From contig NC_018027.1 of NCBI RefSeq assembly GCF_000266905.1, forward strand, positions 4,278,001-4,342,000: a stretch of 64,000 nucleotides of DNA, written 5' to 3'. The stretch comes from Mycolicibacterium chubuense NBB4. Its GTDB lineage: Bacteria; Actinomycetota; Actinomycetes; Mycobacteriales; Mycobacteriaceae. The translations under genes were made by a program, and so were the position numbers. Below are positions 37,241-47,172 of this stretch, piece after piece. Position 1 is the first letter of the stretch. The number at the start of each line of letters is the position of its first letter. The notes beneath the pieces are model-generated. The model ran no database searches, was not told where the DNA came from, and saw nothing but the letters and a program-made list of their open reading frames with translations.

Positions 37241-37329
37241 GGCCCTGTCCTCCAGATTCGGAAGTGATGTGGTGGTCTGAGAAGATCGTGGGCGAGGACG
37301 TGAGCCCGGTCACGTTTTAGTGCATTGTG

Positions 37330-37387
37330 TTCAACCGACGACGTGTTCAACCGACGACGTGTTCAACCGACGACGTGTTCGACCGAG
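37330..37387. repeat. 16-bp tandem repeats in the dctA/kinase control region
   Basis: Three perfect copies of TTCAACCGACGACGTG (37330-37345, 37346-37361, 37362-37377) are followed by a degenerate partial copy (37378-37387). They end about 16 nt before the kinase ATG. They could be direct-repeat binding sites for the response regulator or a slippage-derived repeat. Confidence 0.85.
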
Positions 37388-37403
37388 AGGTGCTGGGCGA
37401 CAG

Positions 37404-38981
37404 ATGGCGCGCATCCGCGCGGCGTGGCCGCGGTCGCTGGCCGGCCAGGCGATCGTGCTGCAGATCCTGGTGATCGCCGTCGTCGTGGCGGCCGGCAGCG
37501 CGCTGGCCCTGCTCGACGCCCGCCGCGACGGCGACTCCGCGGCCAGACAGCAGGTGCTGGGCATAGCGACCTCACTGGCCGATGCGCCGTCGACCGCCCA
37601 GGCGATCGAGGCGGGCCGCGCGACCGAGATCCTGCAGCCGGTCACCGAGGCGGTGCGAACCCACACCGGCATCGCGTTCATCACGATCATGGCTCCGGAC
37701 CGGACGCGGTTCACCCACACCGACCCGAGTCAGATCGGCGGGGCCTACATCGGGACCATCGGACCGGCCCTGCGCGGAGAGACGTTCACCGAGTCCTACA
37801 CCGGCACACTGGGCCCGTCGGTCCGCGCGGTGGCTCCGGTGCGCGACTCGTCAGGCCGGATCGTCGGGTTGGTGGCCGCGGGCATCCTGCAGAAGAGCCT
37901 GGCCGACCGCTGGCGCGCGCAGTGGCCGATCATCGCCGCGGTAGGCGTTGGCGCCCTGGCGATCTCACTCATCGGGGTCTGGGGCATCCGGCGCCGGCTG
38001 CTGCGCCAGACCCGCGGCCTGCGCCCAGAGGAACTGCGGGTGATGTACGACCACCATGATGCGATCCTGCACTCGGTCTCCGAGGGGCTCATCGTCCTCG
38101 AGGACGCAGGGGTGGCGCTGGTCAACGACGAGGCACGCCGGCTGCTGTCGTTGCCCGCGGGCCCCGTCGAGCGGGCGGATCTCCCGGAGTTCCTGCGCGA
38201 ACACGACCCGGGTGTGCGAGACGAGATCCACGTCACCGACGACCGCGTGCTCGTCGTCAGCCGCTCGAAGGTCGGCCACCCCGGCGGCAGGGCCACAGAC
38301 GGGTCCGAAGTCGTGACGATCCGCGATCGCACCGAACTGCAAGGCGCTCTCGGCGAACTGAACTCGCTCAAAGTGCTCACCGACTCGCTTCGCTCCCAGG
38401 CGCACGAGGCCGCCAACACGCTGCACACGATCGTGACGATGGTGGAGATGGGCCGCGCCGACGACGCCGTCACCTTCGCCACCGCGGAACTCGAACTGAG
38501 CCAGCACCTCGTCGACCGGTTGTCGGCCGCGGTGAGTGAGCCCGCGCTGGTGGCGCTGCTGCTGGGCAAGTCCGCCCAGGCCGGCGAACGAGGCATCGAG
38601 TTGACGATCACCGAGGACACCGCGCTGCCGGCCGACACCGACGAACTGCTGTTGAGCGGGCAGGAGATGGTGACCGTCCTGGGCAACCTCATCGACAACG
38701 CGATGGATGCCTGCGACCGCTCGGATCCGTGGGTCGAGGTGACGGTCAATCAGGACGACGAGCGACTGCTGATCCGGGTCGCCGACAGCGGAGAAGGCAT
38801 GGACGCCAAGCTGTTCGAGAAGGCGATGCGCAGAGGTTATTCGACGAAGCGGGGCACCGGTGCCGATCAGCACGGGCTCGGGCTGGCGTTGGTCGCTCAG
38901 GTGGTCAACCGCCACCACGGATCGCTGCGCGCCGACGTGACCTACGGTTCGGTGGTGACGGTGACGGTGACAGCGCGGTGA
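37404..38981 (+). CDS. CitA/DcuS-type sensor histidine kinase
   Basis: A 525-aa membrane kinase. Helices at about 15-38 and 173-195 flank an extracytoplasmic PAS-like sensor with HTDPSQIG and GPSVRAVAPV, the citrate/dicarboxylate-binding pattern. A cytoplasmic PAS follows, then the phospho-acceptor His334 in SQAHEAANTLH and an ATPase with NLIDNAMDAC, DSGEGM and GLGLAL. The ATG at 37404 has GAGAGG upstream. It overlaps the regulator by 4 nt and faces dctA, so it probably senses C4-dicarboxylates. Confidence 0.9.
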   Translation: MARIRAAWPRSLAGQAIVLQILVIAVVVAAGSALALLDARRDGDSAARQQVLGIATSLADAPSTAQAIEAGRATEILQPVTEAVRTHTGIAFITIMAPDRTRFTHTDPSQIGGAYIGTIGPALRGETFTESYTGTLGPSVRAVAPVRDSSGRIVGLVAAGILQKSLADRWRAQWPIIAAVGVGALAISLIGVWGIRRRLLRQTRGLRPEELRVMYDHHDAILHSVSEGLIVLEDAGVALVNDEARRLLSLPAGPVERADLPEFLREHDPGVRDEIHVTDDRVLVVSRSKVGHPGGRATDGSEVVTIRDRTELQGALGELNSLKVLTDSLRSQAHEAANTLHTIVTMVEMGRADDAVTFATAELELSQHLVDRLSAAVSEPALVALLLGKSAQAGERGIELTITEDTALPADTDELLLSGQEMVTVLGNLIDNAMDACDRSDPWVEVTVNQDDERLLIRVADSGEGMDAKLFEKAMRRGYSTKRGTGADQHGLGLALVAQVVNRHHGSLRADVTYGSVVTVTVTAR

Positions 38982-39670
38982 TCACGGTGCTGATCGTCGA
39001 GGACGAGCCACTGATCGCCGAGGCGCATCAGACGTATCTGGCTCGCCTGCAAGGCTTTTCGGTTGCCGCGGTGGTCCACAGCGCACGCGACGCCATGCGG
39101 GCGGCGTCGGAGGCCGCCGCCTCGGACACGCCGATCGACCTCGTATTGCTCGACATCGGGCTTCCGGACGCCAACGGCATCGCGCTGGCGTCGGCCCTGT
39201 CGGGATTGCGGCCGGCGCCCGACATCATCACGATCACCTCCGAGCGCGACCTCGAGATGGTGCGCGCGGCCATCGGGCACGGCGCGCTGGCCTATCTGCT
39301 CAAGCCGTTCACGTTCGCCGCTTTCCGGGACCGGCTCGAGCGCTACCAGCGCTACCGGGAAGCGTTGCCGGCCGGGACCGACGCGGCCAGCCAGGCAGAG
39401 GTCGACCGTGCGCTCGCCGAATTGCGCGTCGGACCGAATCGGGCCGCCGCGCCCAAGGGTGCGGCGCCGGCCACCAATGATGAGATAGCCCGCGTTGTCC
39501 GGGATTCCGGTGACGACGGCGTCACCGCCGACGAGGTCGCCAAGCAGGTCGGCGTCTCCCGGGTCACGGCATGGCGCTACCTCGAGCGGCTCGCGGACGA
39601 GGGCACGGTGGGGCGCCACACCGATTACGGCAAGGCCGGCCGTCCCAAGACCCGCTACCAGTGGCGCTGA
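38978..39670 (+). CDS. CitB/DcuR-type response regulator
   Basis: A 230-aa regulator. The receiver domain has the acidic VEDE patch, phosphorylated Asp59 in LVLLDIGLPD and the LKPF lysine. The C-terminal part carries a helix-turn-helix (GVTADEVAKQVGVSRVTAWRYLERL) and ends in a short basic tail. GTG at 38978 overlaps the kinase stop as GTGA. The tandem repeats upstream of the kinase are candidate binding sites. Confidence 0.9.
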   Translation: MITVLIVEDEPLIAEAHQTYLARLQGFSVAAVVHSARDAMRAASEAAASDTPIDLVLLDIGLPDANGIALASALSGLRPAPDIITITSERDLEMVRAAIGHGALAYLLKPFTFAAFRDRLERYQRYREALPAGTDAASQAEVDRALAELRVGPNRAAAPKGAAPATNDEIARVVRDSGDDGVTADEVAKQVGVSRVTAWRYLERLADEGTVGRHTDYGKAGRPKTRYQWR

Positions 39671-41218: not shown

Positions 41219-41629
41219 TCAGGCGGGCTCGGCACCGCGCAGTGTCGGGATACCGGTGGCGAGCGGAATCAACCCTTCGGGGTCGCAGAGTTCCAGCACC
41301 CGCGACACCGCCTTGCTGCCGACCACGCACCAGGTGACATCCTCGCGGCTGAGGTGGGCGCTGAGCGCGTACAGCGCGGACAGGCCGTCGAAGGCCATGA
41401 AATTCACGTCGGTGAGATCCAGGACCACACTGGCGCTGACGCCGGCCGCCTCCCGGACGGCGTGCGCGAAGTGCTTGGCATTCGCTGCGTCCACCTCGCC
41501 GCTGACCGAGACCGTGACTTCCTTGTCCGCGCCGCGGCCCTGGGTGCGGCACACAACAGTCAGCGCTGTCGACGCGACGGAGAAGCGTCGACAGTCAGCC
41601 GACCTGCTGCGGATGGACGTAACGGTCAT
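41219..41629 (-). CDS. STAS-domain protein, anti-anti-sigma-like without the phospho-serine
   Basis: A 136-aa protein whose residues about 22-125 form a STAS domain (VTVSVSGEVDAANA, LDLTDVNFMAFDGLSAL). In antagonists such as SpoIIAA a Ser follows the conserved DF; here the aligned position is Phe80 with Asp81 next to it, so it may be locked in one state. It lies 17 nt downstream of a CsbD-like gene on the same strand, probably in one operon, in a cluster with another STAS protein and a SpoIIE phosphatase. Confidence 0.8.
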   Translation of the reverse strand: MTVTSIRSRSADCRRFSVASTALTVVCRTQGRGADKEVTVSVSGEVDAANAKHFAHAVREAAGVSASVVLDLTDVNFMAFDGLSALYALSAHLSREDVTWCVVGSKAVSRVLELCDPEGLIPLATGIPTLRGAEPA

Positions 41630-41646: not shown

Positions 41647-41886
41647 CTATGCCTGCTCGGCCTTCTGTCGCTCTTCGTTGGTCTTGGCTGCCGCGCGGGC
41701 GCTCTCGGCCTCGGCCTCCTTCTGGGCGGCTTCACGCTGAGCATCGGCTTTGTCCTGCTGAGCCTCGCCCTCACGCTGCAGGTCGTCACGACCCGTCACC
41801 ACGCCGACCACCTCTTTGGCCTTGCCCTTGACGCCCTCGACGGCGCCCTTGACTGCTTCTTCCGGCCCCGAGTTGTTGTCACCCAC
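41647..41886 (-). CDS. CsbD-like stress-response protein
   Basis: A 79-aa hydrophilic protein with the CsbD-type repeat KGAVEGVKGKAKEVVGVVTG followed by a highly charged helical tail rich in Ala, Glu, Gln and Lys. CsbD proteins are classic members of the general stress regulon of SigB in Bacillus. GTG at 41886 has AAAGGAG upstream. A SigF-type promoter candidate lies about 90 nt upstream. Confidence 0.78.
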   Translation of the reverse strand: MGDNNSGPEEAVKGAVEGVKGKAKEVVGVVTGRDDLQREGEAQQDKADAQREAAQKEAEAESARAAAKTNEERQKAEQA

Positions 41887-41972
41887 GAGAAACGCTCCTT
41901 TGCGCAGTGTTCCTGCCCGGGGACGGCCACGCCGATACCGGGGAGCGGCTGCGCCGCTCAGCGAAGCCCTGG

Positions 41973-41997
41973 TTCCCATTGTTCGTGAAAAGAAAAC
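41973..41997 (-). promoter_or_regulatory. SigF-like promoter candidate for csbD-STAS operon
   Basis: On the minus strand GTTT (41994-41997) is followed after 16 nt by GGGAA (41973-41977). The mycobacterial SigF pattern is GTTT, 15-17 nt, GGGTA, so there is one mismatch. Confidence 0.4.
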
Positions 41998-42040: not shown

Positions 42041-42424
42041 TCAGTCGGCGGAATCGGTGGCGAAATTGGTCAACGCCACGTCGAGGGTGGAGAACAGCTC
42101 GACGAAGTCGGAGACGCCGGTGATCTTGAGAGGACGGCTGGTGGCCGGTCCGTCGGCGACGACGGCAAACCTGGTTCCGTCCCCGATGTGCTTTCTGGTG
42201 GTCATCAGGACCTGCATGCCCGCCGAGCCGAGGAAATCGACGTCCGTCATGTCGATGATGAGACCGGCGGGCCGCCGCGCCGCCGCGTCGCTGATGAGAT
42301 CCTGCAGCTGTGGAGCCGTCAGCATGTCGATGGCACCGACGGCGGCGACGACCACGACGCCGTCCACATGGCGTTCGTTGAATTGCTGCACGTGCTGGGC
42401 CTCGTCTCGTATGGGCGCCCGCAT
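42041..42424 (-). CDS. STAS-domain anti-sigma factor antagonist
   Basis: A 127-aa STAS protein. The phosphorylatable Ser67 is preserved in VDFLGSAGMQVL. Such antagonists, when dephosphorylated, bind an anti-sigma kinase and release a sigma factor. The ATG at 42424 is chosen over an upstream in-frame start because the domain begins there. It is divergent from a SpoIIE-type phosphatase that could dephosphorylate it; the shared promoter region has matching inverted -10 regions. Confidence 0.85.
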   Translation of the reverse strand: MRAPIRDEAQHVQQFNERHVDGVVVVAAVGAIDMLTAPQLQDLISDAAARRPAGLIIDMTDVDFLGSAGMQVLMTTRKHIGDGTRFAVVADGPATSRPLKITGVSDFVELFSTLDVALTNFATDSAD

Positions 42425-42486
42425 CGGGGTCGCTGATGATCTCGGGAGGCTGCAGTCTGAACCCGGAAAGTCGTCAAGAGCGGACA

Positions 42487-42582
42487 ATCTCCAACAGATT
42501 AACGAAGTGCCCGACCCGGCGTGCACGGTCACCGCGCGAAGCGGTCACCCGGCCGCCACGGGCGAGCGTTAACGTTGGAGAT
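42487..42582. promoter_or_regulatory. Mirror-image divergent promoters of STAS and phosphatase genes
   Basis: The sequence CGTTAA-(1 or 3 nt)-GTTGGAGAT occurs on the plus strand at 42567-42582 and on the minus strand at 42487-42504. Each copy contains a TANNNT box (TAACGT and TAATCT) pointing to its own gene. Confidence 0.5.
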
Positions 42583-42610
42583 CAGAAGTGGAAACCCTGT
42601 ACTGCCCGCC

Positions 42611-43867
42611 GTGAGGCGGATCGGAGGTACTGCAGTTCGCACGCGCACGCAACTGGCTGAGGAGATCGAGATCGGCCTCGCCGGCTCGCTGAACCCGCGC
42701 CGTACGGCGATGCGTCTTCTCTCGCTGCTGCGGCCGGAATTCGCCGACTGGGCATCGCTGGTCCTCCCCGACTCGACGACCGATGGCCTGCGCCTTCACG
42801 GTGGCGACGCCGTCGGTTTCACCGCGATCGTCGCGCGGTCGCCGCGCACCGACACGCGGTTGGAGCGTCTGCTGCGCACCGGCAACACCGATCTGATCCC
42901 GCTCGGCGAGAAGACCGCCGCAGCGCTGGCGGAGATGGTCCCCCTCGGCCGGCTCCGCGACGAAGTCGCGGTGATGGGTGACGGGCAGCTGCTCGCCGTG
43001 GGCCTGAACGCGCGGGGCGCCACGCTGGGCGCACTGATGCTCGCGCGGCGTAGCGGCTTCGACTCCGACGACGTCGCGTTCGCCGCCCGCATCGGCCTGC
43101 GCGCGGCGATGGCGCTGGACTCGGCCCGGCTCTACGAGGAACGGACGCAGATCGCGGCGGTGCTCAGCGGCGCGCTGCGGCCGCCGTCCCTGCCGGAGGT
43201 CGAGAACCTGCGGCTCGCTGCGCGGTATCGACCGGCCGCGGAGCACCTCGACATCGGCGGCGACTTCTACGACATCATCGGCTCCGGCAGCGACTGGCTA
43301 CTCGCCCTCGGTGATGTGTCGGGAAAGGGAGTGAAGGCCGCCGCCGTGACGGGCCGGACCCGCCAGAGCGTCCGGACCGCCGCACACTTCGACCGCCATC
43401 CCGCTGCCGTGTTGCGGGCACTCAACGGCGCGCTCTACGGCCTGGCGGCCGACCAGTTCGTAACGGTCCTCTGCGCGCACGTCCGGGTGGCGGCCGATGG
43501 CGGTCACGCCGACGTCGAGCTCGCGACGGCCGGACATCAGGGGCCGATCGTCATCCGCGCCGACGGCCGCGTCGAACAACTCGAGATGTACGGCACTGCG
43601 TGCGGGATGCTGTCCGACGTCGAGTACCACGCGGTGCGCCTGCGGCTGCACCGCAACGACACGATGCTGATGTTCACCGACGGGGTGGAGGAAGCCCGCG
43701 GACCCGACGGGCTGTTGGGCGTCGAACGCCTCGTCGCCCTCCTGCCCGCCTATGCCGGTGCCGCGGCCGACGTCGTCTGCGAAGCCGTCGAGCAGTACGT
43801 CATCGAGCACGTCGACGGCGGCCCGCACGACGACATCGCACTGCTGGCGGTCTCATGCGGTCGCTGA
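42611..43867 (+). CDS. GAF-like plus SpoIIE-type PP2C serine phosphatase
   Basis: A 418-aa protein. An N-terminal GAF-like sensor region (about 15-175) precedes a SpoIIE-type PP2C domain with metal-binding GGDFYD (216-221), GDVSGKG (234-240), TDGVEEAR and HDDIALL. It would dephosphorylate a STAS antagonist and thereby free a sigma factor. The start is uncertain: GTG at 42611 is used; TTG at 42575 is an alternative. The downstream cobalamin-binding gene overlaps it by 13 nt. Confidence 0.83.
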   Translation: MRRIGGTAVRTRTQLAEEIEIGLAGSLNPRRTAMRLLSLLRPEFADWASLVLPDSTTDGLRLHGGDAVGFTAIVARSPRTDTRLERLLRTGNTDLIPLGEKTAAALAEMVPLGRLRDEVAVMGDGQLLAVGLNARGATLGALMLARRSGFDSDDVAFAARIGLRAAMALDSARLYEERTQIAAVLSGALRPPSLPEVENLRLAARYRPAAEHLDIGGDFYDIIGSGSDWLLALGDVSGKGVKAAAVTGRTRQSVRTAAHFDRHPAAVLRALNGALYGLAADQFVTVLCAHVRVAADGGHADVELATAGHQGPIVIRADGRVEQLEMYGTACGMLSDVEYHAVRLRLHRNDTMLMFTDGVEEARGPDGLLGVERLVALLPAYAGAAADVVCEAVEQYVIEHVDGGPHDDIALLAVSCGR

Positions 43868-44868
43868 ACCCGACGCGCCCCGGCCCGGAGGCGTTTCGGG
43901 CGTACGACAGCGCGGTGGCCCGCGATGACGCCGGCGCGGCCACGGCGCTGGTGGAGCGGTTGCTCGACGACGGCGTCGACGCCGTCTCGATACTCACCGA
44001 CGTGATCGCCGCCGCCCAGCGGGACAACGGCACCCGGTGGCAGCGGGGCGAGTGGACGGTGGCGCGAGAGCACGCCGCCACCGCGATCGCCGTCTCCGCC
44101 ACGAAGGCGGTGACGCGGTACGTGCGCCGCACTCCCCCGACCCGGGGGCGGGTGCTCGTCGCCTGCGCCGAACGCGAATGGCACGCCCTGCCCGCGATGA
44201 TCATCGACTGCGCGCTGCGCACCGACGGGTGGGACAGCATCCTGATGGGCGCGGCGACCTCGCCGGTGCGGCTGAACCAGTACCTGCAGGACTACGGACC
44301 CGAAGCGGTCGCGGTGAGCTGTTCGGTCCTGGGTTCGCTGGCCGCCACCCGCCGGTTCATCGAGGCCAGCACGGCCGCCGGGGTGCCGATCGTCGTCGGC
44401 GGACCCGCCTTCGGGGCCGATGACGTGCGGGCCAAAGCGCTGGGTGCGACCGGCTGGGCCGCCGACGCCGACGGGGCGGTCACCGCGATCGCACGCCTGC
44501 CCGCTGTGGTGCCACCCGCGACACCGCTGCCGGCGGCCGCCGCGGCAGAGCAGGGCGACCTCGAACACGATCACCGCCGTATCGTCGCCGCGCTGCGCTC
44601 CAGCTGGTCGGTCACCTCCGGATCCGCGCCCCCACCGGACATCGCCGACGACGTGTTCAACCAACTGCTGCATGCCATTTCGGCGGTGCTGCTGACCGGC
44701 GACAGCCGACCGGTCCCCGAGACAGCCGCCTGGATCGCCGACCTGATGATCACCAGGGGAAGGACCATCGCGGTGGTCCACGAGTTGGCCGATCGCGCCG
44801 CCGCCGCGCTCAGCGACCATCCGCTGGCGCGCGACATCGTGGAAACCCACTTCGCCGACGGCCTCTGA
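43855..44868 (+). CDS. Cobalamin-binding regulator with CarH-type light-sensing signature
   Basis: A 337-aa protein. Residues 12-95 form a helical cap with W62, E72 and H73 spaced as the Wx9EH motif of B12 photoreceptors. Residues 98-215 are a Rossmann B12-binding domain with E108-W-H110 (lower-ligand His), SVL at 157-159 and GG at 182-183. Residues 230-337 are an extra helical domain I do not recognise. There is no MerR helix-turn-helix, unlike CarH or LitR. Its ATG lies inside the end of the phosphatase gene, so the two are co-translated and probably act together. Confidence 0.82.
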   Translation: MRSLNPTRPGPEAFRAYDSAVARDDAGAATALVERLLDDGVDAVSILTDVIAAAQRDNGTRWQRGEWTVAREHAATAIAVSATKAVTRYVRRTPPTRGRVLVACAEREWHALPAMIIDCALRTDGWDSILMGAATSPVRLNQYLQDYGPEAVAVSCSVLGSLAATRRFIEASTAAGVPIVVGGPAFGADDVRAKALGATGWAADADGAVTAIARLPAVVPPATPLPAAAAAEQGDLEHDHRRIVAALRSSWSVTSGSAPPPDIADDVFNQLLHAISAVLLTGDSRPVPETAAWIADLMITRGRTIAVVHELADRAAAALSDHPLARDIVETHFADGL

Positions 44869-44994
44869 CGCGATTGATCGTCCTTCGAGGAATCGCTTCG
44901 GCACCTCCCGGCGTTGAACGAGTTGGTTCGCAGGCTCGTTGTCACTGCAGTGGCCTCCCCGCCATGTGGGCCACCGATGCAGGGAGTGATCGTC

Positions 44995-45315
44995 ATGAAC
45001 AAGTTCATCGCCGCCGGTCTGCTGCCCGTGGCGGCGCTGCTGGCACTTTCCGCCACGGCGCAGGCGGAGCCGTCGCCATCCGGGTCGTCGCAGGGCCCGT
45101 CGGCCACCGAGACCATCAACCAACTCAAATCTCAGGGCCTCGATGTGCGGGTCAACCGGATCGGCAGCGGCCCGATGGACAAGTGCACCGTCGCCAACAT
45201 CAGTCGCGCGGTGACACAGCCGCCCATCATCCCGGCCTTCGACTGGCACGACGTGAACGTGTTCACCCGCTACCCGCAGCCCGTGGTCACCGTCACGCTG
45301 AACTGCTCCAGGTGA
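44995..45315 (+). CDS. Small secreted protein
   Basis: A 106-aa protein with a Sec signal peptide ending ALSATAQA, then a mature domain of about 80 residues with two cysteines (in DKCTVAN and at the end, NCSR) likely to form a disulfide. AGGGAG stands 8 nt before the ATG at 44995. No catalytic motif is visible. Similar small exported proteins are common in mycobacteria. Confidence 0.8.
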   Translation: MNKFIAAGLLPVAALLALSATAQAEPSPSGSSQGPSATETINQLKSQGLDVRVNRIGSGPMDKCTVANISRAVTQPPIIPAFDWHDVNVFTRYPQPVVTVTLNCSR

Positions 45316-45796: not shown

Positions 45797-47172
45797 ATAC
45801 CCCAGGTGCGTAGTAGATCAAGCGGCTGCGGTTTGTCGGTGCGCCCAGGCCTTGTGTTCCTCGTAGCGTGTGTGGTGGCGGAGGCAGCCGTGGAGGACGC
45901 CGACGAGCCGGTTCCCGAGTGCGCGTAGCGCTTGATGGTGGGTGTCGCCGGCTGCGCGGTGCTCGTCGTAGTAGGTCCGCGCACCGGGGCTTCGAAGCAG
46001 CGCGCAGAATGCCCATTGATCAATGGCGTCGTAGAGGCGTTTGTTGCGGACGTGGCGGGCCAGCACGGCACGTTTTCGACCCGACGCGATGGTCAACGGT
46101 GATGTTCCGGCGTAGTTCTTGCGACACTTGGCCGTGGTGAACCGGTTCGGGTCGTCCCCGAACTCACCGAGCACCCGGGCGCCGAGCACGACACCAAGTC
46201 CTGGCAGGGAGCGGTAGATGTCGGCGTCCGGGTGTGTCTCAAAATGGTCGGCCAGCGCGGTTTCCAGGTCGGCGATCTGGGTGTTCAACGCCGCGATGAC
46301 ATGCACCGCCGCGGTTGTGGTGGCCCCAAACGCAGCCGCGACCGCGGGGGGTGCGGTGAGGTGCTTGCGCCGCAACACGGCTTGGATCTCGGCGGCGCGT
46401 GCCTCGATGTTGCGTTGCCGCCCAGCGGCTTTGAGTGCCGATCCGATCTTGGCCAGGCTCAGTTGGGCACCTTGTTCAGGTGTCGGTGCACGTCCCAGGA
46501 TGGCCAGTGCGTCGCCGTCGGTGAGCGCATCGAAGGCCTCTAATGCGGCGGGGTAGTACTCCCGCAGCGCGCTGCGCAGCATGTTGGCATGCCGGGTGCG
46601 CGCCCAGATCAAACTCTGATGCGAGCGGGCCAGCACCTTGATCGCCTCAGCATCGGGGCTGTCGCCGGCGATCTGACGGTGGTTGTGCCGGTCGGTGCGG
46701 ACCAGATCGGCCAAGAGCTTGGCATCAGCGGCATCGGACTTCGCCCCCGCCACGTGATGTCGATCACGGTAGCGAGCGGCTGCCATCGGGTTGATCGCCC
46801 ACACCTGATAGCCGGCCGCGGCCAACGCTGAGACCCACAGGCCGCGATCGGTTTCGATGCCGACCAGCACCTGGTCGGGTTGGTCGGCGTGGACGGCGAT
46901 CAGCTCGTGCAGGGCCCGGATACCGGAGAGGCCCTCGGGTAATCGCCGCGCCGCCAGCCGTTGGCCAGCCTCGTCCATCAGATACACGTCGTGATGGTCT
47001 TCGGCCCAGTCGTCGCCGACGAAGATCATCAGTGCCCACCTCCCTGCAGTCGTCGTTGACTCACATCAAGCCCGAGGGCACCCCGCGGCGACCTAATGGA
47101 TCAGTGCTCGCGTCGGCACGACACCCCATCAGCGCTATAAGCGACCTCACCGAACCGGCCGGGGCACGATCT
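45795..47172 (-). mobile_element. IS110-family insertion sequence (approximate ends)
   Basis: The element contains an intact IS110 transposase with a short downstream flank and about 140 nt of noncoding sequence upstream. Both proposed junctions lie in a TCTAGA sequence (45792-45797 and 47170-47175), consistent with recombination at a CT core, and the outward ends share AGAT followed by CCCC. The ends are inferred, not proven. Confidence 0.55.
45818..47029 (-). CDS. IS110-family transposase
   Basis: A 403-aa DEDD-type recombinase. The RuvC-like catalytic residues fit D6, E59, D99 and D102 (VGDDW, VGIET, KSDAADA), and the C-terminal Tnp20 domain has [17 protein letters not shown] and [10 protein letters not shown] with the conserved Ser. 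No frameshift is seen, so it may be active. AGGGAGG precedes the ATG. The family uses a structured bridge RNA from its noncoding end to choose target and donor sites. Confidence 0.93.

Follow-up and report, generated by a model that had tools for sequence, protein, structure and literature searches.

In the stretch of DNA analysed here (the window, 64,000 nucleotides within the 6.34-Mb genome of an environmental-type mycobacterium, G000:C3), the gene of a putative B12-dependent photoreceptor starts inside the gene of a SpoIIE-type phosphatase, and the question is what such a receptor would sense and through which partner it would act. A sequence-only reading of the locus had described the protein, here named PCob1, as of the B12 photoreceptor type, possibly a light- or adenosylcobalamin-gated switch acting by protein contact, with a C-terminal helical domain of unrecognised type. 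The features of the locus are compiled in Table 1.

Translation of the gene yields 337 aa plus stop with no internal stop codons, and the motifs are directly visible in it: W62, E72 and H73 stand in the W-x9-EH spacing at the positions that had been named, the Rossmann motifs of the B12 domain are present as reported (E108-W109-H110 for E-x-H, S157-x-L159 and G182-G183), and the ATG indeed lies within the phosphatase ORF. Pfam assigns B12-binding_2 (2e-10) and B12-binding (3e-15), and the absence of a MerR-type DNA-binding domain, pointed out before, holds in the Pfam and NCBIfam scans, the N-terminus being occupied by the B12 helical bundle. The C-terminal helical part has no Pfam match and was in this respect rightly called unrecognised, but a fold search with the structure model (pLDDT 93.4) recognises it as a photoglobin. 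In detail, the model matches the photocobilins 8j2x, 8j2y and 8j2w over its whole length (residues 7-337), and a second fold search returned, beyond these three photocobilin entries, matches chiefly to the B12 part. The features by which photocobilins were recognised here, a B12 domain with W-x9/10-EH and E/D-x-H and a globin-like domain joined to it, are both found in PCob1. Judged by sequence and predicted fold, PCob1 is a photocobilin, a member of a described family but of a divergent class (class I in the following), and its helical domain corresponds to the globin (photoglobin) domain of that family. Photocobilins were defined by Zhang et al. 2024 (PMC10979010), and photoglobins are part of a wider clade of bilin-binding globins (PMC10151467). 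The idea of a B12 photoreceptor that acts by contact on the co-encoded phosphatase is supported by homology, by the conservation of the gene pair and by what has been published on relatives, whereas the novelty implied by it gives way to membership in a described family.

Among the matches listed, the nearest named relatives of PCob1 belong to Mycobacterium and Mycolicibacterium. In an alignment of the window protein with 64 of the 119 other homologues listed (A1, from the best 120 of 301), W62, E72, H73 and H110 are unchanged in all 65 rows, an invariance which, as far as the aligned proteins can tell, far exceeds chance.

Table 1. Features of the PCob1 locus and of the second photocobilin module in the same genome.
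Feature	Position	Strand	Evidence or remark
DcuS/DcuR-like sensor kinase and response regulator pair	37320-39670	+	below equivalog cut-offs
Second STAS gene	41219-41629	-	acceptor place Phe (FMAFDG)
Microaggregate-binding protein 1 (CsbD-like), between both STAS genes	41647-41979	-	NCBIfam MBP-1, 9e-34
STAS_A, divergent	42041..42532	-	PF01740 2e-17; TIGR00377 over cut-off
SpoIIE-type PP2C phosphatase (SpoIIE1), weak GAF-like N-terminal part	42521..43867	+	PF07228 1.3e-39; GAF 7.6e-4, below cut-off
Overlap of SpoIIE1 and PCob1 genes, 13 nt	43855..43867	+	ORF coordinates; from ATG of PCob1 to end of SpoIIE1 ORF
PCob1, class I photocobilin (337 aa)	43855..44868	+	translation; sequence and predicted-fold match to photocobilins
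B12 domain, helix-bundle half, residues 19-82	43909..44100	+	PF02607 2.1e-10
W62; E72; H73	44038-44040; 44068-44070; 44071-44073	+	inside helix-bundle half
B12 domain, Rossmann half, residues 98-208	44146..44478	+	PF02310 2.7e-15
R107; H110 (presumed cobalt ligand)	44173-44175; 44182-44184	+	inside Rossmann half
Photoglobin (bilin-binding-type globin) domain, residues 227-336	44533..44862	+	predicted fold
D266; W293	44650-44652; 44731-44733	+	inside photoglobin domain
IS110-family transposase, ~950 bases downstream of photocobilin	45818-47029	-	NCBIfam over cut-off
Second module SpoIIE2-PCob2-STAS2	L087 3939-5365		both junctions 4-nt overlaps

The overlap with the phosphatase gene is observed directly, as are the conservation of the gene pair and that of the phosphatase aspartates. 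In alignments of SpoIIE1 orthologues homology sets in near codon 38-48, which makes GTG 42611 or 42635 the probable true start of SpoIIE1. A start codon that gives an overlap of exactly 13 nt with the SpoIIE ORF, stop codon included, is found in 18 of 28 loci, the window locus among them; the overlap is therefore more than a choice of start, and it suggests translational coupling of SpoIIE1 and PCob1. A SpoIIE orthologue lies directly upstream in all class I loci of named genomes (27/27; mycobacteria, Actinokineospora and Umezawaea), and the wider surroundings vary among the six loci compared, except for L006, which resembles L015. The partner phosphatase carries a SpoIIE domain, and the aspartates in its GGD, GDV, TDG and HDD motifs, which we take to be the metal-site residues, are invariant in 36 class I SpoIIE rows, with the window counted twice. 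A scan of 42400-45100, which excludes mycobacterial promoter types, returned no sigma-70 promoter and no terminator.

A sample of 394 Actinomycetes genomes contained 66 photocobilin-positive genomes at a threshold of E 1e-15, with 75 photocobilin ORFs at 72 loci, the split gene of L120 being represented by two ORFs. A same-strand SpoIIE ORF is located directly upstream of 60 of these 75 ORFs (54 of the 66 genomes), with a STAS gene following closely downstream in 25 of the 60, and in the family of the window genome the upstream SpoIIE is present for 15 of 15 photocobilin ORFs. Since many actinobacterial relatives keep both genes together, the sensor probably acts on the phosphatase. The pairing does not extend to all photocobilins, as 15 of the 75 ORFs have no upstream SpoIIE (two of them, at L079 and L081, are second copies that immediately follow a linked one) and none was found near photocobilins of other classes of the phylum (0 of 19 loci, stretches of ~1.5 kb on each side). 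In the window's own genome both photocobilin genes lie behind a SpoIIE gene, of which only six were found genome-wide; the probability of both pairings arising by chance is near 1e-6, given these six and an estimated number of ~6100 genes. The second of these photocobilins, PCob2, is SasPcob-like, so both photocobilin classes run in one genome. Concerning gene structure, L079 and L081 have tandem photocobilin genes behind one SpoIIE, and in L120 (G656) a class II photocobilin is broken into two frames downstream of a SpoIIE2-like ORF that is itself intact, through either decay or a sequencing error. At L051, L055 and L057, from other classes of the phylum, the domain order is reversed, with the photoglobin part before the B12 part.

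Residue and tree analyses were based on 67 of the 75 Actinomycetes photocobilin ORFs, with a length of at least 250 aa. In a maximum-likelihood tree, rooted for drawing only and containing the window protein twice (P0001 and L001), this protein falls into a 16-row group separated by a 100/99 branch from rows including SasPcob and AbPcob. SasPcob of Saccharothrix syringae (PDB 8J2W/8J2X; PMC10979010), on the opposite side of this branch, shows ~34% identity to PCob1, and in an ungapped alignment its Gly105, Pro134, His137 and Asp270 correspond to Arg107, Ser136, Arg139 and Val267. Arg at the Gly105 position (motif REWH) is shared by 11 SpoIIE-linked proteins among the 67; in the alignment used, Pro134 is changed to S or N in 8 of the 11, His137 to R in 9 and Asp270 is replaced in all 11, and the other 45 SpoIIE-linked proteins keep Pro134 in 45, His137 in 43 and Asp270 in 44 cases. 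REWH is likewise present in the second of the tandem genes at L079 and L081, which group with the other class. Within A1 (from the best 120 of 301), R107 is found in 64 of 65 rows with K in the remaining one, R139 (SasPcob His137) and W293 (SasPcob Trp296) in all 65 and the GxxxP proline in 2, and position 266 is acidic throughout (62 D, 3 E) and followed by V, A, L or T at 267. Opposite Asp270, which in SasPcob contacts biliverdin as do Trp296 and His137, MAFFT and one profile alignment place Val267, and a full-length profile alignment D266; AbPcob, a characterised photocobilin, has His at this position (PMC10979010). The light signature given for SignatureFinder consists of GxxW, EH, GxxH and GxxxP (PMC11796333) and is a mining signature, no definition of photocobilins; PCob1 has GxxW and EH, with RxxH in place of GxxH and Ser136 in place of the GxxxP proline. 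Counted against a light reading of class I are the absent GxxH glycine, the mostly absent GxxxP proline and, in the ungapped alignment, the absent biliverdin-anchoring Asp. These alignments set class I apart from characterised photocobilins at a number of chromophore-pocket positions. Judged by best bit score, the phosphatase paired with a class I photocobilin is SpoIIE1-like in 11 of 11 rows, and that paired with class II is SpoIIE2-like, except for five deep lineages nearer to SpoIIE1 and one extra SpoIIE ORF (the 62 rows in total include one additional SpoIIE ORF each from L096 and L098); in the family of the window genome no swap between photocobilin and SpoIIE classes was seen.

STAS_A, in which homology begins near codon 36-49, has Ser at the usual phospho-acceptor place (FLGSAGM) and may be the substrate of the SpoIIE1 phosphatase. 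It stays a candidate only, because no STAS gene is present in the fetched stretch at 11 of 27 class I loci, with one nearby at the other 16. The second STAS protein looks non-phosphorylatable, since its acceptor place is F or V in all eight copies compared (window and seven loci). The idea of PCob1 as mobile cargo was dropped: viral contigs gave 25 pattern matches, none of which encodes a relative, and the plasmid collection gave six records (five Streptomyces, one Nonomuraea) with partial matches only (45-47% of the query, <60% identity).

Among 8000 candidates scored, 19 matched as long proteins that include a photocobilin. P0122 (908 aa, one sequence) contains SpoIIE and both B12 domains in a single chain, which could have originated from a lost stop codon, and P0134 (487 aa, three member sequences) combines a photocobilin with a STAS domain; both belong to the SasPcob-like class. 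In P0136 a photocobilin is fused to GGDEF. A class I SpoIIE fusion was not found among 7999 candidates sharing most words that were scored, neither of the two matches being such a fusion. In the model of P0122 the parts are well folded, the linker is disordered and the domain arrangement is without confidence (pTM 0.54), so it is uninformative on a contact between SpoIIE and photocobilin. The STAS acceptor place of P0134 is Ala (CDAMG), and that of STAS2 from the window's genome is Ser. Another apparent fusion, P0128, was discarded, as it has no Pfam match before residue 594 and looks like a wrong-frame translation upstream of a photocobilin.

Taken together, we propose, with a probability of roughly 0.68, that a class I photocobilin responds to AdoCbl photolysis by acting through contact on the SpoIIE of its operon, and thereby on STAS dephosphorylation in a partner-switching pathway. 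In the dark, PCob1 would bind adenosylcobalamin and form a dimer, with H110 below the cobalt and W62, E72 and H73 around the adenosyl group. Light would split the Co-C bond, the adenosyl group would be lost and the dimer would open, and the changed surface of PCob1 would make contact with the SpoIIE phosphatase from the same operon. With the phosphatase altered, a STAS protein would be dephosphorylated differently, and this would affect a partner-switching (sigma factor or stress) pathway. Cobalamin binding, photolysis and the oligomer change are expected for PCob1 by analogy with characterised relatives. In photocobilins, AdoCbl is photoconverted upon excitation of either biliverdin or AdoCbl itself, SasPcob is monomeric in its light form, a fused diguanylate cyclase turns over >10-fold faster in the light than in the AdoCbl dark form, and separate photocobilins mixed with an isolated cyclase alter that cyclase (PMC10979010). 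SpoIIE and STAS as targets are suggested by gene linkage and by the two natural fusions of the other class.

Several other explanations have to be weighed against this proposal. PCob1 might sense the adenosylcobalamin level or the redox state of cobalamin instead of light, with AdoCbl binding alone gating SpoIIE. Class I does lie off the published light signature, the G of GxxH being R in 64 and the P of GxxxP kept in 2 of the 65 rows of A1 (from the best 120 of 301; PMC11796333), but the adenosyl-contacting W, E and H are invariant in the same rows and two photocobilins of the same architecture are light-switched (PMC10979010), and we hold such a sensor to be unlikely. The joint change of four pocket positions relative to SasPcob could further mean that light sensing has been lost in class I, whose B12 and globin parts would now provide SpoIIE with a scaffold or a sensor of another ligand; this is very improbable in view of the four core cobalamin/adenosyl positions kept in 65 of 65 rows (A1, from the best 120 of 301).

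If SpoIIE were merely co-expressed, the real target could be a different protein, such as a STAS protein or some kinase elsewhere, which would fit the existence of a photocobilin-STAS fusion, of GGDEF fusions and of photocobilins without SpoIIE neighbours. Such a target seems doubtful, as the constant neighbour is SpoIIE, at 27 of 27 class I loci against only 16 of 27 with STAS nearby, and one SpoIIE-photocobilin fusion is known. That PCob1 is the corrinoid protein in a methyltransferase system of the MtaC/MtbC type is hardly credible: weak NCBIfam matches to MtaC (8e-7) and MtgC (2e-5) are far below the cut-offs, and many homologues bear the jgi name 'methanogenic corrinoid protein MtbC1', but PCob1 matches photocobilins over its whole length, and every class I locus compared has a phosphatase as neighbour. 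Light-dependent contact with the operon phosphatase is the reading that we prefer.

With regard to cofactor supply, the window's genome has a CobO-type adenosyltransferase gene, and no PF01126 heme oxygenase was found in it. Of the 11 sampled photocobilin genomes that belong to the genus, 10 likewise have no PF01126, and the remaining one, G377, has a weak match. The domain occurs in 36 of 66 photocobilin genomes versus 123 of 328 others (Fisher p 0.013), and within the genus in 1 of 11 versus 7 of 15 (p 0.084); these figures give no simple rule, and heme oxygenase was rejected as a proxy for bilin use. Furthermore, the genome encodes a relative of MhuD (2.5e-55 to Rv3592), the product of which is mycobilin (PMC6018153), as well as a close relative of the heme-binding MSMEG_6519, with HugZ similarity below the cut-off. 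A bilin source is therefore possible, and its absence is not claimed. It is conceivable, though we regard it as improbable, that class I is a bilin-switched branch, in which mycobilin or another bilin would occupy the remodelled pocket beside AdoCbl and which, with SpoIIE, would provide light input to partner-switching sigma-factor control in mycobacteria without canonical heme oxygenase (10 of 11 sampled photocobilin genomes).

The photocobilin family is already known, and a possible SpoIIE/STAS link has been named for Saccharothrix: one sentence of the 2024 paper states that SasPcob potentially interacts with STAS, SpoIIE and PP2C-like proteins, and the function of standalone photocobilins is called less clear there (PMC10979010). 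New here are the wide occurrence of the SpoIIE linkage and the class I pocket changes; within the literature collection searched, no other published SpoIIE-photocobilin or mycobacterial photocobilin system was found. The linkage provides a specific partner candidate, the upstream SpoIIE, for most standalone photocobilins found in Actinomycetes. If true, the proposal would connect partner-switching control, in mycobacteria as in other actinobacteria, with light sensing through B12, and would raise the question which bilin serves where no canonical heme oxygenase is encoded.

In comparison with known systems, the output of AbDPcob from Acidimicrobiaceae (PDB 8J2Y) is a fused diguanylate cyclase, whereas PCob1 stands beside a separate SpoIIE phosphatase. 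CarH and LitR have the B12 light-sensing module, the W-x9-EH motif and the axial His in common with PCob1, but they carry a MerR DNA-binding domain where PCob1 has none and has a globin domain instead; the match of PCob1 to the NCBIfam CarH model reaches 44.6 bits at a cut-off of 400. AerR and the SCHIC domain of AppA are not known to have a globin domain, and their partner is a repressor. The partner gene of PCob1 is of the same kind as SpoIIE/RsbU-type phosphatases with STAS partners. In these phosphatases the input is fused or RsbT-like, and here it would be a separate photocobilin.
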